DNA from: a virus
Length of the DNA stretch: 64,000 bases
Direction: 5' to 3' (one strand)
IMG/VR virus record: IMGVR_UViG_3300027749_000040
Span: 1-64,000 of that record
Below are positions 7,226-56,013 of this stretch, piece by piece (positions within the stretch are counted from its first letter, which is position 1; each line of letters starts with the position of its first letter). The notes beneath the pieces were generated by a model. The model did no database searches and was not told the DNA's origin. It saw nothing but the letters and a program-made list of their open reading frames with translations. The position numbers and the translations under genes were made by a program.

Positions 7226-10195
7226 TTATCCCTGTGAATAATTTAATAAATCTGTGTCAACCCTGTTACCAAATTTAATTTTGTCTAATAATTCATCAGT
7301 CTTAGATTCCAACATAACAGTAAACTTCTCTATAATTGAGGAAGAACTATCATCTATATCTTCACTAATTTCTTCTGCATTATCAGATAATAACCCAGTT
7401 TCTTCTACTTTATCAAGCAATTTTTTAATAGCATCAAGTTGATCTTCATTACCTACAAATTCTTTACCATGTAACTGAACAAAGTAACCTTCAGAAGGGC
7501 CACTAAACATTGCACCTTTTTTGGCTGCTTCAAAGTGTACTGGATCTTTTGGAACTGTCTGGAACAATCCTTGTTTATTCATTGCGGCTACTGCATTAGG
7601 ATCTTTGTAATTTTGAATATCAACTGCTAATCCTCGTTCATGCTTACTTCTACCTGGTTTGGCAATAGGCATACCAGAAGGACCTATACCAGGTCTGCCT
7701 GCTTTAACTGACTCGTCCCAAACTCTTTGCTGATCTTCTGGATCACGTTTAGCACTATTAATTGCAATTTTATTACCTGTCATTGAATTAAATGCCTCAG
7801 CTGCCGCAATTATTCTATCCTTGAAGCCGCTAGCAAGTGCATCAAAATTACCCTTACTCCCTGAATTACTACCAAATGATAAAATAGTTGCTGATGATTT
7901 ATTTGATGATCCACTTTCAGAAGTTGTTTGACCTTTTGCAGGTGATTCAGATGAGTTGGAATCTGTTGTTCCAGGAGACATACTTCTTGTTGTAGCACCT
8001 TTTGCAGGTGGCCCGGGAGGTGTAGGTATTGTTGCTCCTGGAGGTAAGTTAGCCGGAGCCGTTTCTTTTTGTTCTTTAGTAACTGTTGTTAATTTTTGTT
8101 CTGTGTTGGCTAAATCTTTATTCATTACTTCTAACTCAGATTTCATTCTAGTAATAAATGCTTTATTAGCTTCTAATTTTGGATCAAGATTTTCAATACT
8201 TTGATTTTTAATTCTAATAGATTCTTTTAATTTTGCAACTTCTTTTTTTAAGTCTAAAGATTGTTCTTCTTTTGAAGCAGGTACTGCAATGCCTTTTTCT
8301 TTTGCCATTTTCTTAGCGGCATCACCAAATAACTCCACAGACTCATTGAATACTTTCATAGCACTTGCCATGGCGAGACCTGCACCGTCCATTTTCTTAG
8401 CGGCATCATCAAGTACCATTGCAGTTTGTTGCTGTTGTTGCGCTACTTCAGCATTTTGTTGAGTAGTTTTATCTTTTGTATTCTTTTTATCGTCTTGTAG
8501 TTTATCCAAATAGTCGCCTACTGACAAACCTTGCTTTGCAGCCTGTTCTTGAAATTCTGCCGATCTTTTAGTAAATTCTTGTGCTTGAGCAAATCCACCA
8601 GTCATTAGTCCACTAGTATCACCACCAAATCTACCTGTGTCTGCCATCATGTTTGCTTGACGCTCGTATCCTTTGGCGGCACGTGTTGTTAACTCTCCGG
8701 TATCTGCACCTTTTTTAATACCCTCAATCAATCCACCTTTACCACCAAATTGATTATATGCTACTGCACTTGCTTGTCCTGTTATACCTTTACCAGCAAA
8801 ATACTCAGCAACTCCAGTTGCTCCTTTAGTATCGCCGGACGCTTGAAGCATTGCGGCTGCTTCATAAGCACGTTTTAATTCTGCTAATCTTGCTTGACCG
8901 GCTGCACTTCTATCTTGCTCAGCCTCAAAAATGGCTGCTCGTAAATTTTCATTAGCCATCACAGTGGCTCTAGCTTCTTCTAATTCTTTTCTGTTTGTGC
9001 CAGTTATCATTGATAGTTTATCCAAATTATCAATATATTTTTTGGCACCGGCAATCTGCTGTTCATCTGACATACCACGAGCAAGACCTAAGCGATCTTC
9101 CTCAGTCATGTATTTCATTATATGTTCACGTTGGGCATCACTATTGATACCCATTAATAAAAATTCTTTATTAAGTTTACTTGTTGGTGCGGCTATAGCA
9201 CTAGCTACTGTTTCAAACTTAGATACACCAATGGCCGCGGTGCCACCGAACAATGCCAAGTTCTTAGAGTTTTCACCTAATAGTTTATTAAACTTTTCTA
9301 TTTCGCCGGCACTTAATCCTACTTTATGAAGCGAATCATAAAGACCGTTCATTCCTTTTGCAGTAGTTAAACCCTTTTCACTTAATGTACCATACGATTT
9401 GTATAAGTCATCATTAAGTTTAGCACCCATCTCAATAAGTTTAGTAGCACCCTCCATTGCGGCGGCGGCTATTGCTAAGGCCGCGCCCACAATCTTCAAC
9501 ATTGGGCCAAGTGGTAATATTAGTAAGGCTGCGCCAATGCCGTATACGGCTTTAGTTACAGAGTCACTGAATTCTTTTGCTCCTTTTGCACCTACACTGG
9601 CACCGCGTTCACCTTTGTAAATAGCTTCTGACATTGCACCAAAAGCCTTTGTTACTCCAGTTAATGCGGCAATAGTTCCTTGTAATGCTACAGCACCACC
9701 AACACTCTTGCCGGTCATCTCAAACATTTTGTCTTGTAACTTCTCAAAGACTCCGCTAAAACTGTTTACCCCGCCTGCTAGTGCTCTAAATTGTTCGACC
9801 GGTTTGTCAGTCGCTTGTACTAGTGCAGATTCTTTAGCAATAGATTTATCTAATTTTGCTAATAATTCTTGCTGACTTATAGAAAGTTCTTCATCAACTT
9901 TAACTTCTTTACCACTTTGGTCAGTAATATATCCGCGGCGTTGAAGTTGTTGCTGATAAAGTGCTTGTTGTTTATCTGCTAACTGTTTAGTTTTACTATA
10001 GGAATTTTCTAATTGATTAGTGACCCCGTCCTGATCTGCGGCAGCTTGGCTATTTTCTTTCATCAGGCTGTCTCTAATTTGAACAGCCATAGGACCTAAA
10101 ACATCTAAGAATGTTTGGTCAGTTTGACGTACAGCAGTGTTTAAATCCGTAAGACCATTGTCTAACTCTCTGACTGTTTGAGGATCCATTGCCAT
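7226..10195 (-). CDS. Tape-measure-like tail protein with C-terminal M15 peptidase domain
   Basis: A 989-residue, largely helical protein. It has an N-terminal coiled-coil region, a hydrophobic Ala/Gly/Leu segment at about residues 217-250 (AVYGIGAALLILPLG...), a long Ala/Lys/Glu-rich helical body, and a Gln/Lys coiled coil followed by a Pro/Ser/Thr linker at about 700-790. A zinc peptidase domain of the M15 (VanY/D-Ala-D-Ala carboxypeptidase-like) type follows. Its metal ligands are visible as SKHERGLAVDIQ (His852, Asp859) and DPVHFE (His887), preceded by INSAKRDPEDQQRVW. Length, hydrophobic segment and the nearby gp26-like frameshift gene point to the tape measure (T4 gp29 role), which sets tail length and enters the cell envelope. 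The peptidase would then cut peptidoglycan peptide stems during infection. The M15 call is strong; the tape-measure role is inferred. Confidence 0.8.
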   Translation of the reverse strand: MAMDPQTVRELDNGLTDLNTAVRQTDQTFLDVLGPMAVQIRDSLMKENSQAAADQDGVTNQLENSYSKTKQLADKQQALYQQQLQRRGYITDQSGKEVKVDEELSISQQELLAKLDKSIAKESALVQATDKPVEQFRALAGGVNSFSGVFEKLQDKMFEMTGKSVGGAVALQGTIAALTGVTKAFGAMSEAIYKGERGASVGAKGAKEFSDSVTKAVYGIGAALLILPLGPMLKIVGAALAIAAAAMEGATKLIEMGAKLNDDLYKSYGTLSEKGLTTAKGMNGLYDSLHKVGLSAGEIEKFNKLLGENSKNLALFGGTAAIGVSKFETVASAIAAPTSKLNKEFLLMGINSDAQREHIMKYMTEEDRLGLARGMSDEQQIAGAKKYIDNLDKLSMITGTNRKELEEARATVMANENLRAAIFEAEQDRSAAGQARLAELKRAYEAAAMLQASGDTKGATGVAEYFAGKGITGQASAVAYNQFGGKGGLIEGIKKGADTGELTTRAAKGYERQANMMADTGRFGGDTSGLMTGGFAQAQEFTKRSAEFQEQAAKQGLSVGDYLDKLQDDKKNTKDKTTQQNAEVAQQQQQTAMVLDDAAKKMDGAGLAMASAMKVFNESVELFGDAAKKMAKEKGIAVPASKEEQSLDLKKEVAKLKESIRIKNQSIENLDPKLEANKAFITRMKSELEVMNKDLANTEQKLTTVTKEQKETAPANLPPGATIPTPPGPPAKGATTRSMSPGTTDSNSSESPAKGQTTSESGSSNKSSATILSFGSNSGSKGNFDALASGFKDRIIAAAEAFNSMTGNKIAINSAKRDPEDQQRVWDESVKAGRPGIGPSGMPIAKPGRSKHERGLAVDIQNYKDPNAVAAMNKQGLFQTVPKDPVHFEAAKKGAMFSGPSEGYFVQLHGKEFVGNEDQLDAIKKLLDKVEETGLLSDNAEEISEDIDDSSSSIIEKFTVMLESKTDELLDKIKFGNRVDTDLLNYSQG

Positions 10196-10282: not shown

Positions 10283-11107
10283 ATGGATAATAACCCACTA
10301 AAGCAATATTTTCGTAGACCAGCAATTTATTTAAAACTTCCTAGCGGGGGCAATTATTATCCGCAAGATTCAGTTGATATACCGGTTAACGGAGAAGTTG
10401 CGGTATATCCAATGACAGCAGTTGATGAAATTACTACTAAAACTCCGGACGCATTGTTCAATGGTAGTGCTGTTGTTGAGATTATTAAAAGTTGTATTCC
10501 ATCAATCAAAGATCCTTGGGAAATTCCATTAATGGATCTAGATCCTATACTAGTTGCTATCAGAACTGCAACAAACGGAAATAATATGGATATTACTAGC
10601 AAATGTCCTGCATGTGAAGAAGAAGCAAGTTATGGTATTAATTTGGGCAATCTACTAGGTACATTACAAAAAGGTAAATATGATGAGCCTTTAATTCTAC
10701 AAGACTTGTCATTCAAGTTTAAACCACTAGCATATAAACAAATCAATCGTATTAATCAAACTCAGTTTGAGATACAAACAGTTGTAATGGGATTAGATAA
10801 TATTGAAGATGAAAATCTAAGAAAACAAAAATCAACTGAAACAATGCAAAAACTAAATCAATTAAGTGTTTCATTGGTATCCGAAACTATTGAGAGCATT
10901 ACTACTCCGAGTGCTGTAGTCACTGAAAAAGAATTTATCATTGATTTTTTAAAGAATTGTGAAAAACAGACATTTGAAGCACTACGTAATTATGCTATTA
11001 AGATGCGTGAGGCTAGTGAAATCAAACCATTAAAGATGACATGCATTCACTGTCAGCACGATTACGACCAAAGCTTAATACTTAACCCTACAGATTTTTT
11101 CGTATAA
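10283..11107 (+). CDS. 26: gp26-like baseplate hub/tail assembly protein (short form)
   Basis: The 274-residue protein begins MDNNPLKQYFRRPAIYLKLP followed by SGGNYYP and continues with TTKTPDALFNGSAVVEIIKS, CIPSIKDPWEIP and DLDPILVAIRTATNG. This is the pattern of the T4 gp26 / T4_baseplate family in T4-like phages. It carries two CxxC pairs (CPAC near residue 109 and CIHC near residue 254), probably a zinc ribbon. T4 gp26 (208 aa) is listed as a hub component. Here the gene faces the tape-measure-like gene and ends in a slippery heptamer, so it probably acts as a tail assembly chaperone like lambda gpG. This is the unshifted product; the shifted one is listed separately. Confidence 0.85.
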   Translation: MDNNPLKQYFRRPAIYLKLPSGGNYYPQDSVDIPVNGEVAVYPMTAVDEITTKTPDALFNGSAVVEIIKSCIPSIKDPWEIPLMDLDPILVAIRTATNGNNMDITSKCPACEEEASYGINLGNLLGTLQKGKYDEPLILQDLSFKFKPLAYKQINRINQTQFEIQTVVMGLDNIEDENLRKQKSTETMQKLNQLSVSLVSETIESITTPSAVVTEKEFIIDFLKNCEKQTFEALRNYAIKMREASEIKPLKMTCIHCQHDYDQSLILNPTDFFV

Positions 11108-11331
11108 GGCTTCTTACGTTAGATCCTAGCGGAGTACAGAAGCTCATTGATAACTTAGATAAAGAGTCTGAAGATATCAAAAGATCCGCTATCAAACTAT
11201 CTTGGTATATGCGCGGTGGTGCAACCTATGATGACATTATGAATATGTCTGACTTTGAACGAAAGTGTGTGTTGGAATTAGTAGAAGAAAACTTAGAAAC
11301 AACTAAGAAGTCAGGAATGGCTTTCTTTTAA
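10283..11331 (+). CDS. gp26-like/-1 frameshift fusion product (gpGT-like tail assembly chaperone)
   Basis: Join 10283-11101 with 11101-11331 (349 aa). The downstream frame 11101-11331 reads RIRLLTLDPSGVQKLIDNLD... SWYMRGGATYDDIMNMSDFE followed by LVEENLETTKKSGMAFF. The WYMRGG and ENLETTKK..FF pattern looks like a small conserved tail protein of T4-like phages. There is no ATG, GTG or TTG in frame before the Met of WYMRGG, so it lacks its own start for the conserved first part. It lies exactly in the -1 register relative to the gp26-like frame at the heptamer T TTT TTC (11095-11101), six codon bases before the zero-frame stop. This is the same arrangement as lambda gpG/gpGT next to a tape measure gene. 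That a shift occurs is inferred from sequence. Confidence 0.75.
11095..11101 (+). promoter_or_regulatory. -1 ribosomal frameshift heptamer T TTT TTC
   Basis: In the gp26-like frame the codons are GAT TTT TTC GTA TAA. T TTT TTC fits X XXY YYZ, so both tRNAs can re-pair one base back. A 7-bp stem begins after a 6-base spacer (GGCTTCT 11108-11114 with AGAAGCT 11138-11144, one G-U pair). TAGCGGA in its loop (11127-11133) is complementary to TCCGCTA at 11185-11191, allowing an H-type pseudoknot. Confidence 0.7.
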
Positions 11332-28933: not shown

Positions 28934-31900
28934 ATGGCAGCAAGAATTAGAACTTTAAATTTTTTACCTGAAGTATTCAGAACTCCTACTAATGCACAAT
29001 TTTTAGGAGCCACATTAGATCAACTTGTAGACCAACCAAATACAATGCGTATTCAGGGCTATATTGGTAGTAAATTTGGATATGGTATAAATGCTAAAGA
29101 CAAATATGTAATAGAACCTACAAAAGTTCGTACGGATTATCAGTTAGATCCGGGAGTAGTATTTACTAAGACAAATACTTCCACAGCTACAGATTTCATC
29201 ACGTATCCTGGCATCATTGATGCATTAAAATTAAACGGTGCTGTTACTGATAATAACGATAGATTGTTTAATAGTCAATTCTATTCATGGGATCCGTTTG
29301 TTGATTTAGATAAAGTAATCAACTTTAACCAATACTATTGGTTGCCATTAGGACCACCTTCGGTAACAGTAGCAACGGATATAGTGTATAACGCACAAGA
29401 TTATAATGTTCAAGATGATCCTAATGCTTATATCATTTCAAGTGATATTAATCCAGATGGTTCCGCTAACCCAACATTAACTCTTATCCGCGGTGGCACT
29501 TATACTTTTACCGTAAATCAAAATAGTCCCTTCTGGATTCAAGGTCAACCTGGTGTTACTGGATATGATCCAAATCAACCAAATCTATTAACTCGTGACG
29601 TATTAGGAGTTACTAACAACGGAGCAGAGACTGGCATTGTAGAATTTATTGTTCCTTATAAAAATGCACAGGATGAGTATAATTTTCCTGGCAACAATTT
29701 AGTTGACGTAGTATCATCTGCACCGTTTGATGACATTGAGGGTAGATTATTAAGTGATGTTGTTGACATTGACGGAGTTACTGCTCTTGAAGGTTTAACG
29801 GTAATGTTCTACAATACCGGTGTTCCCGATGAACAAGGTTTTATAGGTCAATATTATGATACTACTTTATATGATGAAGAAACAAATGAGTCTGCACCCA
29901 ATGAAGGTGGCGCACCATATGTATTTCCCGGTACAATCATAAATGATGCTAATTATGAAGGTGGTTATTATACTAATGTATCTGCAACATTTTACAGAGT
30001 AACATATGTAGGTGATCCTACTAATCCCGTTATCAAATTAATACCTGCTTCAAGTATTCCTACTAATGAAAAAATTACTGCAAATTATGGCACACAATGG
30101 AAAGCACGTAATTTTTATAGAAATGTTCAAGGTAATATTAATATAGTTCCTTATCTAAGCAGTTTGTTAGATACATTATATTATCAAGATGGCACTGTTT
30201 CAAATAAAGTAGGCGTTATCAGGTTGATTAATAGTAATATTACTAATCAAATCAACGTACTTGAAATTTTAGGTCAACCAAATTATACCGCACCAAACGG
30301 TATAGTATTCACTAATGGATTAAAAGTTACCTTCAACGGTGATATTTATCCTACCAGTTATAAGACAGGTGAATACTACGTACAAGGTGTTGGTACTGCA
30401 ATTGAATTAATCAACACTATTGACTTGATAGTTCCAGAATCATTTACTGAGGGAACGTACAATCCTTGGGATACATTACCATACGACATTGGTAACTATG
30501 ATGTTACATTATATATTCCTGTAAAACAAGATTACATTACAATTGCTAGAAATAGTATAGATAGAAATCCATGGTCACGAAGCAATCGATGGTTCCATAT
30601 TGATGTTATCAATGCCACTGCAACATATAATAATAATCCAAGTATTGCCACAACATATGCAACACAGGATAACAAGGCAAAACGCCCAATTATTGAATTT
30701 TATCCAAATTTAAAATTGTTTGATAATTGTATAGTTGGTAAACAACCTATAGACTTCTTTGATGTGAGAACAACTGATGCATTCACTCAAGTCGCCGGTC
30801 AATATAATTACTATCCTGATGTAGAAGTTTATACTACTGCAAATGCTACTATTGCCACAGCCTCATCAGCTACATCTACCACAATTTCAATACTTGCAAG
30901 TAATGTTTCAAAAGGTGCGTTTCAAGTAGGACAATTTATTACTGACTCTGCAGGAAAATTACCTAGAAATTCTCAAATTACTTCCATTAATGGAACTACA
31001 ACATTAACACTTACAGTTGGATGGAGTAACCCCACATCATTCATTGGTGTGTCAAATGTATCATTGGTTGCTAATGATATATCTAATGATAATTATGCAT
31101 TGTACGATGGTGCTAGAATTGTATTCTCAATTGATAATGATGCTAATGTTAGAAATAAAATTTATGTAGCTCGTTTTTCAAGTATTCACGGAACAACTCC
31201 TGTCATAACATTAACTGAAGCAGACGATGGTTTGGTGCTACAGAATGAAGGCACAGTAGTATATAAGGGTTATTATAATCAAGGTAAAGATTTTTACTAT
31301 TATTTTAACAATGATCCAACTGTATTAGAAAATGAATGGCAAGAAGGCCAACAAAAAACAACTGTTAATCAAGCACCATTGTTTGATGTGTTTGATGATG
31401 CCGGCGTAAGTTTTGGTGATAAGGAAATTTACATTGGTTCATCATTTAAGGGTAATAAATTATTCAGTTATGGCATTGGATCAGGAATCAATGATATTGT
31501 ATTAGGATTCCCACTTCGGTATAGTTCCGTTAATAATGTAGGCGATATTAGTTTTGATGTGCCGTTAAATTCTAAAACATTTAATTATGTTCGAGGAACA
31601 ACTCCTATTACTAGAAAAGTTAACACAGGCTATGTACACAACTATAGTGATTTAAATACAAGAACCAGAGCATTAGGTTGGCAGACGGCTGTTGCAGAAA
31701 GTCGCCAATATCAAATATTCTCATTTAACTATGTAGGTAACAGTGGTGTCACAACTTATATTTGTGATATAGGCGCAGCCACAAATACAGTTTGGCCTAA
31801 CATCCAAGTTTATGTAAACAATGTATTACAAGACACCAACACTTACACCTATACTATTAATCCAACAACTACAGTAGTTAATTTTACAGTACCTAATACG

Positions 31901-34900
31901 CTAGTAGACACAGTAGTTGAAATTACATTATTGAGTGACCAAGTAAGTAAGACTGCTTATTATCAGATACCTAATAATTTACAGAATAACCCCTTCAACA
32001 CTGATATAACAACAGCTAACGTAGGTGATATTCGTGGACAGTATCAAAGTATTTTCTACAATAATCCAAATACAACCGGTACAGTATTTGGCGCAAATAA
32101 TTATCGTGATTTGGGTAATCTTGTACCATGGGGTAATAAAATTATTCAGAATAGTGCATCATTGGTGTTGCCCGGCACCTTTTTAAGAAAGCCAGGAGTC
32201 AATTTATACGACTCATTGCAGTATAATAGTAATCAATATATTTCATTCAAAACTTTACTAATAGATACTGTTAATAAAACAGAATATAATGTATATCAAT
32301 CTTCGGCAGTAATGCTAGATGATGCACTGGATCAAATCACCATATCTAAAGTAGATAGCGCGCCGTTCTTCTGGAGTGATATGCTACCTAGTAAATCACC
32401 TTATGCTAGCAACTCATATACTTTTGCAAATTCATTAGATGTTAGTAGATATCCATTAACCAGAATTTATAATTTTGATACTGCAAACTATTATGGAGTA
32501 TTGGTATATCTAACACGTACTGTACAAGGTTATACTAGTATTACTCAATTGGTTATTGGAATTGATTATACTATCAGCGCAACAAGCCCGGCACTAACAG
32601 TTGAGACTGATTTGTTACCCGGAGATATTATTACAGTTAATGAATATTATCAAACCTACGGATCGTATGTTCCAAATACCCCTACAAAATTAGGCTTGTA
32701 CCCATCATTCATTCCTGAAGTAATACTAGATGAAAACTATACTAACCCTACATACTTTATTCGCGGACATGATGGGTCTTATACAAAATTATATGGAGAT
32801 TATATTGACGGGCATCTCGTAGACTTTAGAGATAAAGTCTTGCTTGAGTTTGAAACTCGAATCTATAATAATTTAAAATTAAGTAATATTATTCCTATAA
32901 GAGATTATGATGTTGTTCCTGGATTTTTCAGAACTACTGATTATTCTTATGATGAATTCTTATCAATTTATTCTCAGTTTTTCTTAAACTGGGTTGGACA
33001 AAATCGGGTTGAGTATAAACAACAAATTGGATATACTCCTACTAACCAATTTTCATACAACTACAGCCAATCTGGCAATAAAATTAACAATGCTCAAATT
33101 CAACAAGGATACTGGAGGGGTATATATCAATACTACTATGACACATCACAGCCTGATGTAGCACCTTGGGAAATGATAGGATTTACTAGTCAACCTGCAT
33201 GGTGGACAACACGTTATGGTCCTGCACCATATACCAGTGATAACTTAGTATTATGGGGTGATTTAGCCGCAGGTCTTAATTGGAATAACGGAGATCCTGT
33301 TATAGTAACACAATGTATTAGACCACAGCTACTACAAGTATTACCTGTTGATAGTAACGGTAATCTAGTATCACCGTTTGACGCAATTGTAGGTAATTAT
33401 GACGGTAGAAGTTTCCGCAATGATTGGAAAGTTGGGGACGTTGCATCAACAGAATTTTCGTATCGTAGAAGTAGTTCATGGCCGTTTGACTTAATGAAAA
33501 TATTAGCATTAACTAAACCTGCTGAGTTTTACAACTTAGGCGTTGATGTTGACAATTACAAATACAATAGTGAATTCAATCAATTCTTAGTCAATGATAG
33601 AAGCCATTTAGTAATTGCAGATGTTCAAATTTATGGTGATGGCATTGCCAAAACAAGCTATATCAACTGGATTGTTGATTATGAAAAACAAGTTGGTATC
33701 GATTCAACACAAACAACTATAGATTTATTAGCCAACTTAGATGTTCGATTAATATATCGTGTTGCTGGCTTTACTGATAAAACTCTTGTTAACTTTTATG
33801 TTGAAAAAGGATCGCCTAATAGCAACAACGCATCACTGTTGATACCCTCTGAAAGTCTGAATGTATTATTATATGATAATATTCCCTTCAATAAAATTAT
33901 ATACAGTGGTGTTATTATACAAAATTCCGGTACTGGCTGGAAAGTATATGGTAACTCACAAACAAAAGCATATTTTACGGTAAGTAAACCAAAAATCAAT
34001 GGTAACTATAATTTAGTGACAGTTGAAGGTGAATCAGTACAAGTTGCTAAAGATTATTTTGAAAACACAGAAATATTAATACCGTATGGTACTGAGTTTG
34101 TATCTAAACAAGATTTGGCTCAATTTATTGGAAGTTATAGTAATTATTTAACAACACAGGGTGTATTGTTTAAAGAAATAGAATCTGGAATAGATGTTAA
34201 CTGGAATCAAATGATTGCAGAATATTTATATTGGACTCAATCTGGTTGGGGGAAAGGTAGTTTACTTAATTTAAACCCGGCAGCCAATTTGATTACTATT
34301 CAGAAAGATAGTTGTGTAGTACAACCATTGACACTACAACGTCAAAACTTTATATTAAATCAAAATTTATATCCAATTCAATCTGTTGATTTAGCAGTAG
34401 TGCGAGATGACACACTATTTACTGCTACACCTCTTAATCAAGGTGATACCGTTGCGTATGGTCAGTTTAATATTAGTAACTTTGAACACGGTGTTGTATT
34501 CAACAACGTTACATTATTCAACGATGTGATTTATAATTTGATTACCGGACTACGGCAGAATCGTATTATAACTCGTGGTACAAAAACTGCTGACTGGAAC
34601 GGCACTATTGATGCACAGGGTTTTATCCTTAATCAAGATAATATACAAGAATGGAATAATATAACCAAATATACTAAAGGCGTTATTGTAAAATATAAAA
34701 ATAAATATTGGGTTTCATTAAGAGTATTAGAACCAAGTATGACATTCGACGGTAGGTACTGGAAAGAAACAGACTATAATGAAATTCAAAAGGGATTACT
34801 ACCAAACCCAAGTACACGTAGTTATGAAAGTGTATTATATTACAATACAAACACTCCTAACTTAAGTAAAGATGCTGACTTATTAAGTTGGTCATTGGTT

Positions 34901-37900
34901 GGATACCGCCCTCGCGATTACATGGCTCTGGCTGACCTAACTGATATTACTCAAATCAATGTTTACAAAAACTTGATTAAAGAAAAAGGCACAAAGATTG
35001 CCGCAGAAAACTTTAAAGGTATTAATTTACCACAAGGTGGCATTGATTATGATATCTATGACAACTGGGCCATTAAGACCGGCGAGTTTGGTGGCGTGTT
35101 AGATAATAACTTTATTGACTTTAAATTAAATCAAAATGAATTGACCGGAAATCCTTCTATAGTTGGATTAACAACAGGCACCTACACAGACGGGGTACAA
35201 CAAGAAGTCCCATTGTATTCTGTATTCAATTACGGCAGACCTATTACTAATCCTAATGTTTTACCAACGATTCCCGCAAATACACCTAACAGATTATATC
35301 CGGATGCAGGTTATGTTAATTTTAATGACATAACTACGTATGGCTATTACTATAATGATTTGAATCTTGCACAAACACCTTTGTCAAAATTATATGTAGG
35401 TGAATATGTTTGGGTCGCTGACTATAACGGCACTTGGCAAGTATATACGCCTATTTCAAATGGTAACTTGATTCAAGTATTAAACAATTTGAATGGGACT
35501 GTTACACTACAATTTGCTGAACCACATGGATTAACAAAGTATCAAACTATTGCAATCATTAACTTTGATGACGCGGTTAACGGTTATAGAATTGTACAAG
35601 CAGTTGTAGATAATTATAGAGTTACGATTGCACTATCATTAGTTTCTACTATAGCAAGATTGACTAACACCAATAGTATTGTAATGCGTTTCCAGTCACA
35701 GCGTGTAAGCCAACCAAGTGATATTGTTAACTTACCTTTATTGAATACTGAATTTGTTAAAAACAAAGTATGGGTAGATACTAATACTGACGGTGATTGG
35801 GCTGTATATCGTAAAAGCATTAATTATCAACTAGACTTAGAGTTATTAAAGACCGGATCAGAAACATTTGGTAGTGCAGTTGCAACTACAAGTGATTTAG
35901 GTTATTTAATTGGTGATGCTGATTTAGGTGTAGCATATCGTTACACATATAACCCTGTATTCGAACGCTATGACCTAGCACAAACACTAACTGGTTCTGC
36001 TAGTTTTGGTTCATCAATAGGATACACCGGTTCAACTTTTGCTATTAGTCAACCTACGGGAACATTACTTGCAGATAGAAAAATAAAAATATACACATTG
36101 ATAAGCACACTTCAAGTTAATGAGTTACAATTTTTACAAACAATTCAAGCACCAACTGGCATAACAAATTGGGGAACTAAAACAGAATTTTCTGGAGATG
36201 GCAACTGGTTATTCATTAGTGCATATGAACAAAATGCATTCTATGTATATCGTAAATCTCAAGTTACTGGTTTGTATGAATATAACACTATTATAACATT
36301 GGGTAGTCTTGTTACCGGTGATAATTTCTCATATGCATTGGCAACTAACTATTATGGTAATACATTAGTAGTTGGCGCACCCGGAGTTGACACCGGTGTT
36401 ACTAATAATACAGGCACATCTTATATATTTGAACGAGTGATGCAAAACTTTGAAGTGAGGTTTACTAGTCAGCCATTCGTGCCGCAAACATTTAATTTAG
36501 TAGCCGGTCCTTTAACTAGGACAGCAATCGGAAGTTCTATTAACTCTAGCAATGCCATTACATTGTCATCAGTTGCAGGACTGTCAGATGGAGTGAATGG
36601 AACACCAATTGTATTTACAGGTAACGTATTTGGTGGTATATCACTAAATCAAGTTTATTATGTTAAATTAATTTCTGGTTCAACAATCACTCTTTCATTG
36701 ACAAGAAACGGAACAACATTGGTGTTAGCAAACACACCATCTGGTACAATGACCATGGTTGCACAAACATCACCAATCTATGTTAGTGTCAATGGAACAT
36801 TAATAGATGACAATAACTATGCTGTAATTGGATCATTGTTAAATGTATATCAATCATTAAACGCAGGTGATATACTAACAGTTAGTGGATCTACCTTTGT
36901 GTTGATACAACAATTTACCGCAACTGACACTATTACAATTGGCGAGCAATATGGTTATAGTGCAGACTTGGATACATATGGTAATGAACTTTTAATTGGC
37001 GCCCCTTTCCAAATTAATTCACAAAACAAAGAAGGCACAATTTATCGTTATACTGATGGCGGCGGAAGTTATGGTATTATTACTGGTACGATTGATTGTC
37101 AAGTCACCACACCAACGACTATTTTATTGAATGGTTATGCTGTTGCTATACCTGTAGGTAATGCATCAGTGGTTGCGGCAGCAATAGCAGGATCAAATAT
37201 TACTAATGTAACCGCAACATCAATAGATAATAAACTTGTCATATCGTTGATTAACATAGAATTAGCAACAATCAATGACAAGTTAGATATTATTACACTT
37301 ACTGGTAATGCAATGTATCAATTGGGTATTTCAAAATACACATTTACACAAACTATCACTGACCCGCATACCGCCGGTAGAACTCAATTTGGTACTGTTA
37401 TCAAATTTAATGATAATGGTTCATTTGTAGCAAGTGCACCGGCATCAGCACGTTATGAAGCAACTACATTCGATTCAACCGATGATGATAATTATAACAA
37501 TGATACATTGTTTGATAATAATACAACACAGTTTGTAGATATCGCAAGAAACGCCGGCGCAGTTTACATGTTTGACTATGCTGAAAATTATAATGAAAAT
37601 TTAACAAATGTTGGTCAATTCATATACGCTCAAAGTGTAAACGCATTGAATATAGACTATGGTGCACAACCATACTATGGTACTGCGTTAGACTTTAATG
37701 ATAATACGGTAGTAGTTGGTACGCCTGGCTTTAGACCGGGATATAACAATGGTCAAGTAATTATCTACACAAACTCATCTGGTCTAGCGGATTGGTCTGT
37801 ATATCGTCAACCAGAAATAGCAGTCGATGTTAACGGCATTCAAAACGCACAACTATACAGTGCATCAACTAACAACACATTAATAAACTTAGATTACTTT

Positions 37901-40900
37901 GATCCATTACAAGGAAAAATATTAGGCGTAGTATCAGAAAACTTAGATATAATTTCTAATGCTGATCCTGCATCATATAATAGTCCTAATACAACTATAT
38001 CTGGATCTAGTGTTTGGGGCACTAAACAATTAGGTAAGTTGTGGTTCAATACAAGTTCTACTAAATTTGTTAACTATCATCAGTATAATGATGTAGTATA
38101 TAATAGCAAATGGTGGGGTCGTGTATTCCCTGGTAGTCAAGTTACAATTTACAGTTGGATTACAAGTGATGTGGTTCCGGCCGAATATACAGCTACCGGT
38201 ACTCCATTGAACTTAACAGATTATGCTATTGAATATGTATTAAATTCAACCGGAGCTATTACCCCTGTATATTTCTACTGGGTAAGAAATACTAATATCA
38301 TCTTCAACCAGATAGGTAAAACATTAAGTGATACTATATGTGAGGCATATATTAGTGCACCACAGGCATCTGGAATCGCTTACTTTGCACCTATACAATC
38401 TAATGTAATGGGTTTGTATAATACAAGTGAGTATGTCAATTCAACTGATACAGTAATGCATATTGGTTTTGCTACTGGTACAAATGATGATGATTCGCAT
38501 AGTATTTACAGTTTGATTCGTTCAAACTATGTAGATGATTTCTTACCCGGATTGCCTGCATTAACAAGTTTACCTCCCCTATCATTATATGATAGAATGT
38601 TAGATAGTATGAGTGGAGTAGATGAATCAGGTGCCATTGTTCCTGATCCATACTTACCAAAACCAGTACAGAGTGGTATATTAGTTCGTCCTCGTCAAGG
38701 CTTCTTCTATTCACGCTTTGGTGCATTAAAGAATTACTTAACACTTGCTAACCAAGAATTAGCACAGATTCCGTTTACAGAAACTCAATCTAGTAAATTT
38801 TTATACACCGTTGGACCTATAAATCCAAGTACAGGATTACCATTCTATGAAACAACTGACTACTGGGAATATATAAACTGGTGGCAACCCGGCTATAATG
38901 ATAATACTAAATCTGCTATGTTAGTAGAATCATATTTTCAATTAGCAACTATTAATGCACAGAATGGATTAATTGTAACTGTTAATAAAAACGGTGCCGG
39001 CTTCCAAGAAACATACAGATATGATAGCACGGTATCTACTTGGGTCCGTATAGGATTACAAAATGGAACAATTCAATTTAAGAGTTCATTGTGGGATTAT
39101 GAAACAGCACGATTAGGGTTTGGTGATAATTTCTTTGACACAACACCATTCGACACATATCCAAGTCAAGAAACACGCTCTATCACTCGATTCTTAAATG
39201 AAGAATTACCGAGTGAAATATTTGCTTTCAGAAATCAAGGATTGATTTTATTGTTTAACTATATAATGAGTGAAACAATAGAGAGTCAAAATTATCTGCC
39301 ATGGTTAAACAAGACATCATTTATTGATGTAGCACACACGATCCGTGAATTACTTCCTTTAGAAGTATTTCAAAGTGATAATCAAGATTTCTTGTCTGGA
39401 TACATCAATGAAATTAAGCCGTATCATGTAGTTGTTAAAGATTTCTTATTCAAGTACACTGGTACAAACTTATGGGCCGGCAATATTACTGACTTTGATT
39501 TACCAGCACAATATAACACAAATTTACAGAAATATATAACACCTGAATTAGTATATGCTAATCCAAGCGGCGACAGTCAATATTTACCAACAGATGCTAT
39601 ATGGCAAGACCCTGCATATACAAATTGGTTTAACAATTACGGCGTGAGTATAACCGGAGTCAATGCTTATCCAATAACTACCTTAGCATCATATTTAACA
39701 TTGAATAGTAATTCAATGGTAGTAGATAACATTTATGGTTTTCCAATTAACGGAACAATTAAGATTTATGATCCCACTGATCCTGAAACAGATTTAAGTA
39801 AAAAAACATTTGAAATAATTGCTTACTCAAGTGTTGACAGAGCATATAGTACATTAAGTGGATTGACTCGCGGAGTTAATGATACACCTGTATCAAATCA
39901 TTTACCCGGTCAACAACTTTACATTGATCTACCTGCAATATTAGTATTAGATGGTGGTCGTGGTTATGCTAACCCTCCTAAAGTTACTGCATATATAGAT
40001 ACATCAATTTATCCAGCACCTAGAACTGAGGCTATTTTGCAACCAGTGATGAATTTGGATCAACTATTACGCATTGATGTTATCAATCCAGGTGATGGCT
40101 ATGTAGTGTTACCGCAAATAATAATTGAACCTAGTTCAGTTATTACATTTGCAAGTTCAGAAGTTGATTTATTAACCAACACTATTGCTATTCAAAATCA
40201 ACTTATACAAACTGGTGATTTGGTTCGTTACTACACCGGTACTGATACGACCGCAATTGGCGGCGTAAAAAATGACCAATACTATTATGTTAATGTCTTA
40301 GAGTCAGTACCTGCATATGTTCTTGCATTATATACTACCTATGCTGATGCATTACAAGATCGTGACAGAGTAGTATTTTTAAGTACAGGTACCGGGGAGA
40401 ACAATAATTTAGCTGTCAGTGCAAGAGCAAGTTGTGTAACTAGTTCTCGCCCTATTCGTGAAAACATAATGACACTACGCTATGACAGAACTACATATAA
40501 TTCTCAAGTTACTGAGTGGACTAAAAATAATTTCTATGGAAGTTTCTACGCTGGCTCGTTTAAAAATACTGAGCAAATTGCAAGCTCTGCACTAAGTTTA
40601 GAATCTTCACAGCCTGCAATTGATACTATTTTGGCAAGTGCTCAGGGAGCAATTTTTGAAATTCAAAATATACGAAATGATGAAGTTGTAAAATGGTCAT
40701 CTAGAACCCGTACGGTTACTAACACAACAACTAGTACTAATTTAATAACAATTACACCTAGTATTGGTGGAACACCTGATGAAGGTTTTGTAGGACCCAC
40801 TACTGGTTTCTATGTAGGCATGCCAATTAAATTTGCAGGGGCAGTATTTGGTGGATTAGCGGATAACACAGTTTATTATATTAAAGAAATAGTAAGTCTA

Positions 40901-43900
40901 ACACAATTTAGTATTAGTACCACAGTAGGCGGACTAGTGGTGCCACTATCAACTGCGGTAACTACTGCAGGATTAGACGCAATCATCGGAGAAGTCACAA
41001 ATACTGCTGTCATTTCAATTCAGTATCCCGGTATATTGACATCAACTGCAACATCACAAACAACAAACTTTGTAACAATACCATTGAATCCAAGTGGCAT
41101 TTGTGGAACAACTGGTTTCTATACAGGCATACCAATATTCTTCACGGGTAATGTTTTTGGTGGAGTCATTGAAAATGAAAATTATTATGTAATGACGGTA
41201 ATTGATGACCAGACATTTACAATGTCAACAACTAATAATCCCACAATTGTAACAGTTGAGGCAACTGAAAATGCAGGAGATTATGTTGTATTAAATGAAA
41301 TTGGTGATTTAAATATCAATACACCAATAATTATCACCGGCACAACATTTGGTGGAATTATTGCTGGACAATTATATTATATTGCTTCTATTGATTACAG
41401 TACAAATAAAGTTACACTGTCTAATACAATTAATGGTGGTACAGTTGCATTAACTTCTGCAATCGGTACTGCAACATTAACAAGCCAAGCAAATGCAGTT
41501 CAATTAACTACTGCAACAGGATCAATGACCTGTAATATTGGTTTACCAATCAGCCCGGGGCAAATCACTGGCCAAGAATTTACATTCTATAATACATCCG
41601 GCGAATTTACTAATGGTGGCTCTGGATACTCAGGTACAAATAGTAATTTAATTACTAGAAGTACAGTGGCAACAGTGACTGGTTCTAATTATATGTATTT
41701 GAATTTGTTGGGTGGCGGCTTAACTAATATGTATGTAAACATGCCATTTAGATTATCTACATCAGTCGGTGGTCTATCAGCAGCCACAACATATTATGTT
41801 AAGTCTATGGGCACCGTAGTGGTCGATGTTACAAGTTCAAATGCAGGAACAGAAGAATATACCTGCGCAAGTACAACAGGATTCTACGCGGGAATGCCGA
41901 TATCATTCACCGGTGGTGTGTTTGGTGGAGTTGTTGAATTAGTGACATATTATGTTCGCACTGTTACAGGGCTTACTACATTTACTATAAGTGAAACACC
42001 AAGTGGTAGCACCTTTAACTTAACCGGTGATAATGGATTGATGACATTGACTGCCGATAATCCGTTTATCACGGTTAGTTTAACTGCGGGAGGAACAACA
42101 ATATCATTAACTGATAATTTCTCACCGGCATCTACACTAACACAATACCCAACATCAGCCCCAACATTCTTTGTTAGCTATATGTTAGGTGGATATTCTG
42201 TTGTGATTAACACTGCGGGCACAGGCTTTGCATACAATAATAATATTACACTTCAAGGTGGTCAGGATGATCTGCCCGGTGTAAATGGTATAAATGATAT
42301 TGTAATCAATGTCAGTGGTATCAGTGCCACTGGTGCGATAACATCTACAATTATTTCTGGTACTCCACCTGGATTGACAGAACAATACTACTTAAAAGTT
42401 ATTAGTGCAACTGAATTAGAAGTATATGCTAACCCACTGATGACAGTTCCAGTCAATGGTGATACATTAGGGTTAACATACACGGGAGTTACATCAACCA
42501 ATGTTACTGCTGTTACGGCTGCTAATGATAGATTAACAGTAACTAATTCAGACGACTTTGAATTAAATGATCCAGTTGTATTTACTGGAAGTGTATATAG
42601 TGAATTGACTTTGGGTCAGACTTATTATATTAAAACAAAACCATCGACAACTACAGTTACTATTTCAACTACAATAGGTGGTGGTACATTTAACTTTACT
42701 GGTACCATAGCAGATTTAGAATTTACTATGGCCAAGTCAGGTGATTATGTTTATTTACCAGAACCATTCTACTTCACTCAGAGCATTGTTCGTTATAATA
42801 ATAGACTATACCAATGTATTGTCAGCAACAACGATGCTGATTTCATATTGGGTAAGTGGGAATTGCTAGACAGCGGCGATAGAAAACTCAACGAATTAGA
42901 TCGTATTGTTGGGTACTATAACCCAACAGCAAACATGCCTGGCAGAGACTTAACTCAGCTTGTTACTGGAATTACTTATCCGGGTTCAGTATACATGGAT
43001 AATGCATTTCCTCCGGCAGAAGAATTTTTGCTTGATACTGAATTACAAGACCAACCGTTCTACCCAGCAACAATTAATAATATGTCTGTGGTATGGGACG
43101 GTATCCGTTATGTAACAATATCAACATCACCTACTTATTCTGCACTATTAACAAGTACTACAGGTGATAATTGGGCATTGAGTAAACTAAGCAACAACCC
43201 TGTTGGATTGTCAGATATTTACTACGATGGTAATAGATATGTAATCACTACAACTAATTCAGCAACGCCAATTTATACTAGCACAGATGGGTTAGTATAT
43301 ACAACAGGCCAAACATTGTCAGTGCCTTCTAATACATTAAACCGTGTTTATAATAGCAATGATGTTTGGATAGCAGTTGGTGAAAATGTGATAAAAAGTC
43401 TAGATACTATATCATGGGTAAACTCATTTGCATTATCTAGTCCCGGGTCTTTCTCAGATGTAACATATACCACTGCAGGCTACACTGGATGGTTAGTAAT
43501 TGGTAATCAAACTATCAATGGTGTCGATCAAACCTTAATTATTAGAAGTACGAATGACGGCACTACCTGGAATATTGTTAATGATGGTATTACTACTGTA
43601 ATTACTTCAGCATATGTAAATGCAATTACAAGCAGTAATAGTTTAGTTGTCATTGTAAGTGATGCAGGGCAAATATTTACTAGTACTGACGGTGCTCAAA
43701 CTAATGTAGAGCAAACATCAGGTACAAGTGAAAACTTAGTAGATGTTACTTATGGTAATGGTAAATTTATTGCAGTGGGAGACAATGGCACGATTGTAAC
43801 AAGTAGTGACGGCGTAACATGGACTATAGAAACGTCAACCACAACCAATAACCTAAATAGTGTTGCATATAATGATACTGATTCTAAATTCATTATAGTT

Positions 43901-46900
43901 GGTGACAATAACACTATTTTAACAAGTAGTAATGGATCTACGTGGACTACAAGTGCATTGTTTATACAAGAAGAACCAGTGTATACTGTTCAAGGTGATT
44001 CATTTGCCGAAGGTTACGGACCAGAAGAATTGGTCCCCGGCGTAGTTACTGATAATCTAACTATGATTACAACGACACGTCCCGGTACTAACTGGGCAGT
44101 TGGCGAATACGGTCATACAGGGTTCAATGTTGTATCAATTGAAATTACACCATCTTATCCGCAATATGAATATTCATTCTTAAATGTTGTACAGAACCCA
44201 GTGTTTATAGTAATATATGATATTAATCCAGTAATCGGTACAAGTACTAGAATTTATGAGACATATGATTACACGGTAGATTGGGTTCTAAAAACAATCA
44301 CATTGAATACTACATTAGCTCCTAACCATACATTAGGCATTGAATTATGCGAAGTGGGTAACGGTGATCAGTTACAACGATCAAATTCACAGGCGGTACC
44401 ATTTATTGACAATCCTGATACAGGATTTGTTGAAATGCCACTGAACTGTAATTATTCTGCTAGTAAATTCAATGGCAACGGAGTCATAAGACCAGGAACA
44501 GAACCTGTACAGGTAGAATGCACAAAAACTGAAGCACTCATTGATTCTATAACATGCTCTAGTGTATCTAATTTTGCACTCAATCAATCGGTACAATTCC
44601 AAGGCAATGTATTTGGTGGTATTGAATTGGATCAGACATATTATATTAAAACTATTAGTTATATAACTAATAAAATTACAGTATCACTTCCTCCTCTAGT
44701 GAATGGTATTGCGGGACCAACATATCAATTAAGCAATGATACTGGATCTATGCAAATAATCAGTCAACCGGGTACGGGTCTTGTTTGGACTGACCCACTA
44801 GTAGTACATAATGGTACTAAATTGATACTTGGTGAAACTAGTGTGGTAACTCAAACAAAGAGTTCTACAAATTCAATAGTTGTTAATACATCGTTGACTG
44901 TTGACATAAACGATCCAATTGTATTCAGCGATTATATATTTGGTGGATTGGCCCCTCACACAACTTACTACATTAGTTCAATTGTTGACCTTAATGAATT
45001 TACGGTATCTACCTCATTGGGAGGTAGCATTGTACCATTAACAGATGCATCCGGACTTGCAAGTTTTGTCACGAATGATTTTGCAATTTCTATAGCAAGT
45101 GTAGGACCTACTGCAAAGTTAGTGTTTGCTAATAACTACACAAACACTGAAGACTTTGTTACTTTTGCAGTATTTGGAGAAACAGATCCTATACAATATT
45201 CATATAGTATCCCAATTACACAGATTTATATGTCAACTGGTGGCGAGACACAATTACTGTTGACTAATTATATAGGCGGCACTAATCCTGAAAATGCAGT
45301 AGTAGAAGTTAATGGACTGCGCTTGACAAACACATCGGAATATACTATTGATTTAGTTACTCAAACATTGTATTTGACATTTAGTTTAATTGCGGGCGAT
45401 ATTTTAGCAGTTACTACATATAACAGCACTAACAGACAATACTTACATACCACACTAGGTGGAACCTACAGTGGCTCAGCAAGTATCACATTAAATATAG
45501 GATCAACCACACACTTCCCCGGATACGATGGATCTCCGTACGGAGGCGGTCTTCAGACAGCAGCCGGAAGTTTCTCAATAGGACAAGGTTATACTATTAC
45601 TACTATCAATGATGGTGTAGGTGGCCCAAATACAAATTTCACTTCAATTGGCGCATTGAATAATAACATAGGAACATTCTTTATTGCATCTGGAATTGGT
45701 GCTGGATCTGGTAGTGCATTAGAATCTACTGGTGAAGAGTTCTCGCCTGGACCAGACTATTTAACATTATCATCTGGATCTACGGTTGGTTTAGAACTAA
45801 ACACAGCTATAATATTTGCATCACCAATTGGTGGTATTGTTGCAGGTACGATCTATTACATTGCAGAAATATTAACACCGGGAACAACAAACTTTACGGT
45901 ATCGTTAACACCAGGTGGACCAAGTATACCATTAATTACTGATACGGGCTCTATGCTTGGATTTATTAATCCTCCTAGAGTTTCTAATATTACAGCTATC
46001 AATAATAATATTTCAGCACCGTTAGCAAGAACTAATGTTACACAAACAACAGCCCCAAATACTATTACTGCATCTAGTACTGCTGGGTTCGTAATTGGTC
46101 AACCAATCTTGTTTAAAGGCCTAACAACGACCGGTTTCGGTGGGCTATCAGCAGACGGTACTGTATATTGGATTAATTACATTGATGCAAATGGAATTGA
46201 TTTTAAAGTTTCTGAAACACAGAGTGGTAGTGCATACATAGTTACTAATGCATCAGGTTCAATGTATGCTTATGTAGGTGGAAATGAAGCAGTAACATTA
46301 ACTACCGGTGTTGCTCACAACCTAGTTGAAAATGATATTGTGCGTATTGATGGTGTGGTTGGCTCAGTACAATTGAACAATAATTCTTATTACGCAAAGA
46401 TAATTACTGATACTCAAATTGCTTTGTATCTATCACCATATCAACCACAAAGTTATGCAACGAATGACCCGGTAACTACTGTTTCTTCTTATGTAAGCGG
46501 CGGTTATGTTTGGTTAGATAAGCAATTTACATTAATTGACACCACTGCTACTGCAAGTTCAGCAATTGATAATACTATCACAGTGAACTCTGTTAGTCAA
46601 ATAGTAATTGATACACCTGTATACTTCTCTGGTACAGTGTTTGGAGGAATAGTTGAAGGTACTAAGTACTATGTCAAGTCTATTGATGTACTGAATAGTA
46701 AGATAACACTATCATCAACTTATCAAGGTAGTGAAATAGCAATAACCGCATATGCAGGCACAGATACCATGGGTGTCACAATGTGGGAACAAACTAATGT
46801 TGATAGAATTTGGGTGACAGTAAATGGATATCGAGTTCCATCAAGCTCGCTTGTTATCAATCCAAACAACAATCTAGGTATATTGACAACAATTGTACCA

Positions 46901-53788: not shown

Positions 53789-54450
53789 TGCAATTATATG
53801 ATCCATCTAAGAAAGGCACAATTGTAGTTGGACATATGCGTTCAGGTTCTCAATATTTATTGAGTCTAGTTAAAATAGAATTGCAAAAAAATAATGTTGA
53901 ATTTGATGACAACGGAGAATACTTTAAAGATATATTCAGTGCCATTAGATATACTGATAATAGTTACTCATTCTTAAATATTATTGACAAAATAAAAAAA
54001 CAGGACATTAGTACTAATTATAGTGTGGGTACAATCGTCTATCCTAATAGCTTAGATATGATTAGTCAGCATAAGTCAAATTATAATTATTTTTCTAATA
54101 ATTATCATCTTATTAAAATGATTAGAAAAGATGTTATGGCACAATTTATGTCATACATGGTATTTATTGAATCAAAGGCACTACATAGCGGTATAAAATC
54201 AATGGACGAAGTTAAAATAAATACTCCTTATACAGCAGGCAGACTTCATATAATACATTATCTAAATAAACTATTAGAATTAGAAAGATTTAAGGCTGAC
54301 ACAACTGTATACTATGAAGATTTACCGCACTTACCCATACCAGGTCTAACAAAAAATAATTATAATATGACCCCTAAAGAATTTTTTAAAAATTACGATG
54401 ATATTGTAAATCAAATTAACGAATTAAATATAACACATTATGAGCGGTGA
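53788..54450 (+). CDS. Sulfotransferase-like protein
   Basis: Start taken at ATG 53788 (220 aa), overlapping the preceding stop as TAATG, rather than a TTG at 53782. IVVGHMRSGSQYLLSLVKIE fits the 5'-phosphosulfate loop of PAPS-dependent sulfotransferases (P-loop-like GxxRSGSxxL). MIRKDVMAQFMSYMVFIESK fits the 3'-phosphate strand with the Arg...Asp...Ser pattern. A sulfate carrier (PAPS) from the host would be needed. It is more AT-rich than genes on both sides. Position between glycosyltransferase-like and radical SAM genes suggests modification of the same molecule. Substrate unknown. Confidence 0.6.
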   Translation: MQLYDPSKKGTIVVGHMRSGSQYLLSLVKIELQKNNVEFDDNGEYFKDIFSAIRYTDNSYSFLNIIDKIKKQDISTNYSVGTIVYPNSLDMISQHKSNYNYFSNNYHLIKMIRKDVMAQFMSYMVFIESKALHSGIKSMDEVKINTPYTAGRLHIIHYLNKLLELERFKADTTVYYEDLPHLPIPGLTKNNYNMTPKEFFKNYDDIVNQINELNITHYER

Positions 54451-56005
54451 ATACGATCAATTCGCTAGAGATATGCGTGACCGCTTGAATGCGGTTAGTC
54501 CATCACTATGTTTGGCAAAGTGGCAACAAGTCTCTATTCACTTACCTAGTGGATTGACTCAAAGTTGCTATCATCCACCAACACATAAGATACCTCTAGA
54601 ATTACTCAAAGACAATCCTAGCGTATTACACAACACCCCAATCAAAATACATGAACGTAAGCAAATGCTTGAGGGCAAACGACCAGAAGGTTGTAGTTAT
54701 TGCTGGAAAGTAGAAGACGCTAAGAGCGAAGACCCTAAAGGTCATATGAGTGACAGACACTATCGCAGTAGCGAATGGTGGAACGCACCCACGTTTGAAG
54801 AAGTCACACAAAACAAGTTTGATTATGATGTTGTACCTCGGTATGTAGAAGTTAACTTTAATCAGGCATGTAACTTTAAATGTATGTATTGTAGTCCTCA
54901 TCTTTCTAGTAGTTGGGAAGAAGAAGTTAAAAAGCATGGTGGTTATCAATTAACCGGTATGATACATAATAACTTAAAAGCACTAGAACAAAAAGGAATG
55001 ATGCCACTCAAGGTTGCAAATAAAGACAACCCCTATGTTGAAGCATTCTGGCAATGGTTTCCTGAAATATATCGTAAACTACGTGTGTTTAGAATGACCG
55101 GTGGCGAGCCACTTATGGACAAGAACACATTCAAAGTGTTAGACTATGTAAACAAAAACCCACACGGTCAACTTGAATTATCTATCACAAGCAACATGTG
55201 CCCGCCCGATCAGAAATTATTTGACAAATTTGTTGAAAAAGTCAAAGCAATTGAGACACTACGCACATATGAAGACACAGAAAACTTCAATGTACATAGC
55301 GGTAACAACTGGTATGTAGACAAAGGATTCAAACACTTTTGGTTGTTTGTATCACTAGATGGTTTTGGTGAGCAAGCAGAATATATGAGAACTGGATTAG
55401 AGTTTGAACGCATGTTGAATAACGTAAGAACTTTTTTACGTGAAACAAAATATTCTACTGTGAGTTTTATAAACACATTCAATATCATGTCTATTCCAAG
55501 TTTACATAAGTTCTTAGAAATGGTATTAGAATTACGTGCTGAGTTTGGTGGAAGAAGTCAAGTTGAGTTTGAGATTAGTCCTGACCAAACTGAAACAGAA
55601 AAAGAAAATAACATTGTTCACAAGGTTTATACTCAAAAGAAATATCAACGTGTGTTCTTTGATATTCCAATATTACGTTACCCGCCGTGGTTTAATATTC
55701 AAAACAGCGGACAATATGGAATTGATGAAGTAGAACGTTGCTTGAAGTATATGGAAGACAATGTACAGGGTGATGACTATTTGGAAACATTTGAGGGATT
55801 TAAACCGTATGAGATATTGAAAATTAAGCGAGACCTTGCTATAATGAAAGAATCTCTACCCCCGGACCAACTTTTACTAAATAAAAAGAACTTCTACATG
55901 TTTATTACAGAATATGATAGACGCAGACAAACGAATTTTATGGAAACCTTTCCGGAACTAAAGAGCTACTGGAGAGAATGTATCAAAGCGCACACTAAAC
56001 ATTAA
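54440..56005 (+). CDS. Radical SAM protein 1 with N-terminal twitch-like Cys cluster (class A)
   Basis: 521 residues. N-terminal cysteines Cys24 (SLCLAKW), Cys43 (SCYHPPTH), Cys85 and Cys88 (CSYCWKVED) resemble a SPASM/twitch iron-sulfur domain. They are followed by the radical SAM core CNFKCMYC (Cys144, Cys148, Cys151) and the SAM-binding FRMTGGEPLM. The core should bind a 4Fe-4S cluster and cleave SAM to a 5'-deoxyadenosyl radical. MSDR after the second CxxC and the C-terminal motif F-x3-YD-x-RR-x3-F-x3-FP (FITEYDRRRQTNFMETFPEL) are shared with proteins 2 and 6. The start overlaps the sulfotransferase gene by 11 bases. Substrate unknown. Confidence 0.88.
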   Translation: MSGEYDQFARDMRDRLNAVSPSLCLAKWQQVSIHLPSGLTQSCYHPPTHKIPLELLKDNPSVLHNTPIKIHERKQMLEGKRPEGCSYCWKVEDAKSEDPKGHMSDRHYRSSEWWNAPTFEEVTQNKFDYDVVPRYVEVNFNQACNFKCMYCSPHLSSSWEEEVKKHGGYQLTGMIHNNLKALEQKGMMPLKVANKDNPYVEAFWQWFPEIYRKLRVFRMTGGEPLMDKNTFKVLDYVNKNPHGQLELSITSNMCPPDQKLFDKFVEKVKAIETLRTYEDTENFNVHSGNNWYVDKGFKHFWLFVSLDGFGEQAEYMRTGLEFERMLNNVRTFLRETKYSTVSFINTFNIMSIPSLHKFLEMVLELRAEFGGRSQVEFEISPDQTETEKENNIVHKVYTQKKYQRVFFDIPILRYPPWFNIQNSGQYGIDEVERCLKYMEDNVQGDDYLETFEGFKPYEILKIKRDLAIMKESLPPDQLLLNKKNFYMFITEYDRRRQTNFMETFPELKSYWRECIKAHTKH

Positions 56006-56013
56006 GGAATAAA

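Follow-up and report, generated by a model that had tools for sequence, protein, structure and literature searches.

Two protein products made from one gene by a one-base slip of the ribosome have long been known in other tailed phages. In lambda, the tape measure protein is bound by gpG and gpGT, and the T domain of the latter brings in the subunit of the tail tube; according to a 2016 review, long-tailed phages ‘except T4’ conserve the G–T frameshift (PMC5009743). For T4, PMC3004832 lists gp26 and gp51 as chaperones of hub assembly. Tail assembly chaperones of T4-like phages were identified by Vladimirov, Gautam and Davidson in 2022 (Virology 566:9), as cited in PMC10274946 and PMC12846349. 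As far as these citing papers describe them, a short gene and a fused long gene occur in some T4-like phages (PMC10274946), and poly-T −1 frameshift signals, credited to Vladimirov et al., are known in T4-like TAC-N genes (PMC12846349). The latter paper also reports a TAC −1 frameshift in the Vandenendeviridae and Andersonviridae (phage Adele), with an invariant GTTTTT near the end of TAC-N and a −1 frame that is open in all genomes.

Here we describe a locus at which a T4-like myovirus probably makes its tail assembly chaperone pair by programmed −1 ribosomal frameshifting, a reading to which we assign a probability of roughly 0.93. Like lambda gpG/gpGT, the locus would yield, through a −1 slip shortly before the N gene ends, a short N form and a rarer N–C fusion, and its downstream domain has no start of its own; the likeness is one of arrangement. 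Unlike in lambda, the site is T TTT TTC, the N gene is a PF12322 member and this gene is divergent to a candidate tape measure gene rather than just upstream of it. T4 has homologues of both products, gp26 corresponding to the 0-frame product up to the FF junction and gp51 to the whole frameshift fusion, but as separate divergent genes, whereas this phage has one gene and a −1 frame. The locus shares its protein family and a poly-T −1 signal with the T4-like chaperones of Vladimirov et al., as these are portrayed in the citing papers, and resembles in arrangement the Adele-type TAC frameshift, which sits in other phage families. Because poly-T chaperone signals of T4-like phages are already published, going by the same two papers (PMC10274946, PMC12846349), the kind of system is known, and the novelty for T4-like gp26 hinted at in the original prediction does not hold. 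This study adds the present clade, the hairpin and a broad survey, each of which may be new.

The locus and its homology to T4 gp26 and gp51

The window, which is the whole 64-kb stretch of DNA that we analysed, comes from an IMG/VR virus record of 174,470 bases with T4-like genes, including those for the major head protein, the portal protein and a gp46/47-type nuclease pair. The features of the locus are as follows.

10283–11107, + strand: gp26-like gene, N form (TAC-N), ATG start, 274 amino acids
11095–11101, + strand: slippery heptamer T TTT TTC, in frame (X XXY YYZ), kept across relatives
11105–11107, + strand: 0-frame stop TAA, one codon past the heptamer
11101–11331, + strand: −1-frame C domain, 76 codons and stop TAA, open and conserved in relatives
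11108–11144, + strand: predicted stimulatory hairpin, arms GGCTTCT (11108–11114) and AGAAGCT (11138–11144)
7226–10195, − strand: divergent neighbour of 989 amino acids with a VanY-like peptidase domain, candidate tape measure protein

The 3′ end of the open reading frame (ORF) at 10283–11107 reads GAT TTT TTC GTA TAA. The original prediction had placed this gene end and the heptamer correctly to the base, and a direct reading also confirms a −1 frame open for 76 codons (11101–11328, with TAA at 11329–11331) that has no ATG, GTG or TTG ahead of a Met in mid-domain: the first such codon is the ATG at codon 37 (11209). In first-order Markov simulations, 76 open codons arose by chance with P = 0.0027, and an open frame with a start-less first 36 codons with a probability of 0.0002; conservation among relatives is the real test, and outweighs these single-sequence figures by far. 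The string TTTTTTC occurs at 12 sites on the two strands of the window, compared with 22 expected from shuffles. The other 11 are antisense to their ORF, and the copy at 11095 is the only in-gene one on the sense strand. Residues 108/111 and 254/257 of the 0-frame product form CxxC pairs.

In the mechanism that we propose, the majority of ribosomes would terminate at the TAA at 11105, releasing the 274-amino-acid N form. The hairpin, which begins 6 nt past the heptamer, would make a minority pause; with tRNA-Phe on T TTT TTC, these would move one base back and translate 76 further codons, and the resulting fusion would have about 349 amino acids (...NPTDFF/RIRLLTL..., the stroke marking the junction). 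As in lambda, the N form would coat the tape measure and the C domain would recruit tail tube subunits. That the shift takes place, and its rate, are inferred.

The 0-frame product matches PF12322 (T4 base plate protein; E = 5.7e-18, 65.9 bits against a cut-off of 24.5) and phrog_150 (baseplate hub; E = 8e-19), and invariant columns are present in the N-protein alignment. There is one copy of PF12322 in the 174-kb record; no separate gp51 was found elsewhere in this record, which may be a genome fragment. Comparison of T4 gp26 and gp51 with the window fusion by blastp was not significant, and profiles of the window clade gave weak hhalign matches to single T4 sequences, gp51 included. A bridging profile made from eight frameshift fusions of smaller T4-like phages matches T4 gp26 with 89 bits over positions 16–247, stopping at the FF junction, and T4 gp51 with 41 bits over positions 23–294 of 303, covering both domains; gp26 and gp51 match each other (E of about 3e-6). 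This homology identifies the 0-frame product as the putative short chaperone and the fusion as the long one. A tail assembly chaperone function for the locus, with a short N form and a rarer N–C fusion, is well supported by these comparisons, and on comparative evidence the predicted analogy to gpG/gpGT, in which one gene would give a short and a long form by a −1 shift, holds. In structure models, which were made from window and IMG/VR sequences only, the C domain is helical (AlphaFold2, mean pLDDT of 86). A PDB sequence search and Foldseek with both domains returned no convincing match, and blastn against phages returned none.

The divergent neighbour matches VanY (E = 3e-5), with the domain near its C end, and also contains a long hydrophobic stretch; a homologue occupies the adjacent, divergent position at 52 of 134 loci. 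The gene had been described as tape-measure-like: it does adjoin the chaperone gene, divergently and with its VanY-like domain, but its identity as a tape measure protein is unconfirmed, no homology to T4 gp29 being detectable, and we treat it as a candidate only. Elsewhere in the window, a single ORF at 28934–47593 (+ strand) encodes 6219 amino acids, which is very large for a phage structural protein, and 54440–63817 (+ strand) holds head-to-tail ORFs of about 390–520 amino acids, within which 56014–57540 matches radical SAM.

Conservation across relatives and selection on the −1 frame

Relatives were collected from IMG/VR by two N-protein searches of viral contigs in which the heptamer was not used. 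An in-frame T TTT TTC close to the 3′ end of the N gene, followed by an open −1 frame, is present in all of the loci obtained (32/32 and 80/80); one of the 112 is cut short by its contig end. Some of these loci duplicate each other, and around 90 distinct IMG/VR sequences are left, window included; the lowest protein identity among IMG/VR relatives that keep the arrangement is 37%. The check proposed with the original prediction, whether related phages keep both the heptamer and the start-less −1 frame, thus came out in its favour: heptamer and open frame are kept at 112/112 IMG/VR loci, and 70 of 106 heptamer-bearing sequences have no start in the first 15 codons of that frame.

Named phages extend the pattern. 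The four that were fetched first (Phosso, Atu_ph07, 121Q and PA5oct) all have the heptamer and the open −1 frame, as do 12 of 19 further ones: S-PM2, S-CAM9, S-H34, Citrobacter Ci1, Aeromonas avDM12, Vibrio Bakedbeans, Stenotrophomonas Yut2, Desulfovibrio 7757, RaK2, GAP32, Munch and Vibrio 2.275. The arrangement is kept at 25–33% identity in the first four and in RaK2, GAP32, Munch and Vibrio 2.275. Its exact form is absent from the remaining 7 of these 19 distant T4-like phages. XacN1 and CM1 have T TTT TTT instead of T TTT TTC; Kevin, Cygsa01 and D495 have no heptamer, with the C domain still in the −1 frame; and the arrangement differs in LR756511. In S-SCSM1 (L121:3185–3374), T TTT TTC is in frame and the C domain lies in the +1 frame, the −1 frame closing immediately; an indel error or another kind of shift is possible there. 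In Cygsa01 and D495 an ATG overlaps the 0-frame stop, and it looks as though frameshifting has been replaced by start–stop coupling. Overall, the frameshift arrangement appears to be retained nearly throughout the wider T4-like group. The joined gene is annotated in none of the fetched records: the C domain is unannotated in RaK2 and PA5oct and called as fragments in others, in line with the expectation that standard gene calling loses the downstream half.

For the comparison of codons we used 106 heptamer-bearing sequences, in which the named phages were filtered for the heptamer and those from IMG/VR were unfiltered. The heptamer codon columns (271–273) are invariant as NNT, TTT and TTC (F272 and F273), whereas conserved two-fold codons elsewhere in the gene end in T in a fraction of 0.32–0.88 of the sequences (n = 106). 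The first −1 codon after the site encodes Arg in 102 of the 106; the 0-frame residue that follows FF varies freely across the set (G, A, D, E or V). Between relatives, the difference rates at the three codon positions of the −1 frame in the downstream part are 0.21/0.12/0.41. This pattern is the signature of coding sequence, and the −1 frame evolves as such; what had merely looked like a conserved domain is conserved in relatives. The distance from heptamer to 0-frame stop is 3 nt in 95/106 sequences and 0–33 nt in the remainder. In PA5oct, GAP32, RaK2, Munch and L106–L120, the stop lies 9–33 nt past the heptamer and the spacing between heptamer and C domain is unchanged. Two features of programmed −1 frameshifting are therefore found at this locus, an in-frame X XXY YYZ site and a −1 frame that stays open past the stop under coding selection.

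The downstream hairpin and alternative readings

The predicted hairpin contains an inner stem-loop and has a minimum free energy of −12.3 kcal/mol. The spacer between it and the heptamer is 6 nt in the window, within the range of about 5–9 nt for programmed −1 sites, and the stem also starts at 6 nt in 60 of the 106 sequences. Against shuffles that swap synonymous codons and keep the −1 protein, the hairpin region is more stable (mean z of −2.8, with 76% of the 106 sequences under −1.65) than a control segment that lies further downstream (mean z of −0.27, 13% under −1.65). Across 79 relatives, 92.9% of cells are paired, compared with 36–58% with slid partners; changes on both sides are seen at three hairpin pairs, and the covariation score is 0.183 compared with 0.150 for shuffled alignments, a value reached by 0/500 shuffles. 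RNAalifold found no consensus structure for the 79 sequences, probably because of competing alternative pairings, and the structural claim thus stands on the shuffle, slide and covariation tests. The stem columns are in part conserved as codons (Leu-Leu, Lys-Lys-Leu). Phosso, Atu_ph07, L031 and L036 have the same 5′ arm with another 3′ arm further away. A search of Rfam matched no family.

Translational coupling could instead produce the C domain as a small protein of its own, with ribosomes stopping at the TAA at 11105 and reinitiating on a nearby codon. Such an origin would suit 121Q, Phosso, L052 and others, in which the 0-frame stop is overlapped or directly adjoined by an ATG, as well as the heptamer-less Cygsa01 and D495 described above and the short gp51 annotated in cyanophages. 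However, the window offers no ATG, GTG or TTG before codon 37, and a start within 5 codons of the heptamer occurs in only 24/106 heptamer-bearing sequences (121Q and Phosso, for example). These 24 keep the same heptamer and have conserved residues from the heptamer onwards, so the refuting case, in which homologues encode the domain in an independent gene with a convincing start, is not upheld. The conserved R-x-x-L-L of the −1 frame, which sets in at the heptamer, precedes or spans the 0-frame stop; the fixed heptamer codons also speak against reinitiation. Where the 0-frame stop has moved downstream, as in PA5oct and the others named with it, the heptamer stays tied to the C domain with the −1 residues in place, which makes reinitiation very unlikely.

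The T run at the junction is also where two other processes might join or split the frames. Transcriptional slippage on T6 could yield frame-joining mRNAs, and a homopolymer is indeed present. RNA polymerase usually slips on longer runs, however; the T run here is only six, the following C and the X XXY YYZ phase are invariant, and a hairpin at a spacing of about 6 nt suits tandem tRNA slippage. We rate this explanation lower still than reinitiation. Homopolymers are prone to error as well, and an assembly or sequencing error could have cut one continuous gene in two; the split recurs identically in many isolate genomes and in about 90 distinct sequences from IMG/VR, which excludes such an artefact for practical purposes. 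Programmed −1 frameshifting, by contrast, is supported in the comparison by the invariant heptamer, the start-less −1 frame, the spacing of the hairpin and the homology of the fusion to gp51.

T4 and its relatives with the frameshift arrangement

There are two PF12322 genes in T4 and exactly one in 28/29 other T4-like records searched, the 29th having one gene and a second, sub-threshold match. Given that most of the T4 relatives examined have the frameshift arrangement and a single N gene, T4 looks like a derived exception, and it is a reasonable inference that its gene pair replaced an ancestral frameshift. We lean slightly towards a fuller version, in which the U UUU UUC frameshift is ancestral for the T4-like chaperone pair and T4 genes 26 and 51 arose by later duplication, one copy remaining short and the other becoming a permanent in-frame fusion. 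This reading covers cyanophages, jumbo phages, some Straboviridae, and Vibrio and Desulfovibrio phages. Citrobacter Ci1 and Aeromonas avDM12, both Straboviridae, each have one PF12322 copy and the frameshift arrangement; both strategies thus occur inside T4’s own family.

If this history is correct, control of the ratio of the two forms by expression in T4 would have replaced control by recoding. The phage in the window appears to be a well-supported further case of the T4-like chaperone frameshift, overlooked by gene callers. The C domain mostly goes without annotation or appears as a stray small gene, so that annotations of many jumbo and environmental phages lack a conserved tail-assembly protein.
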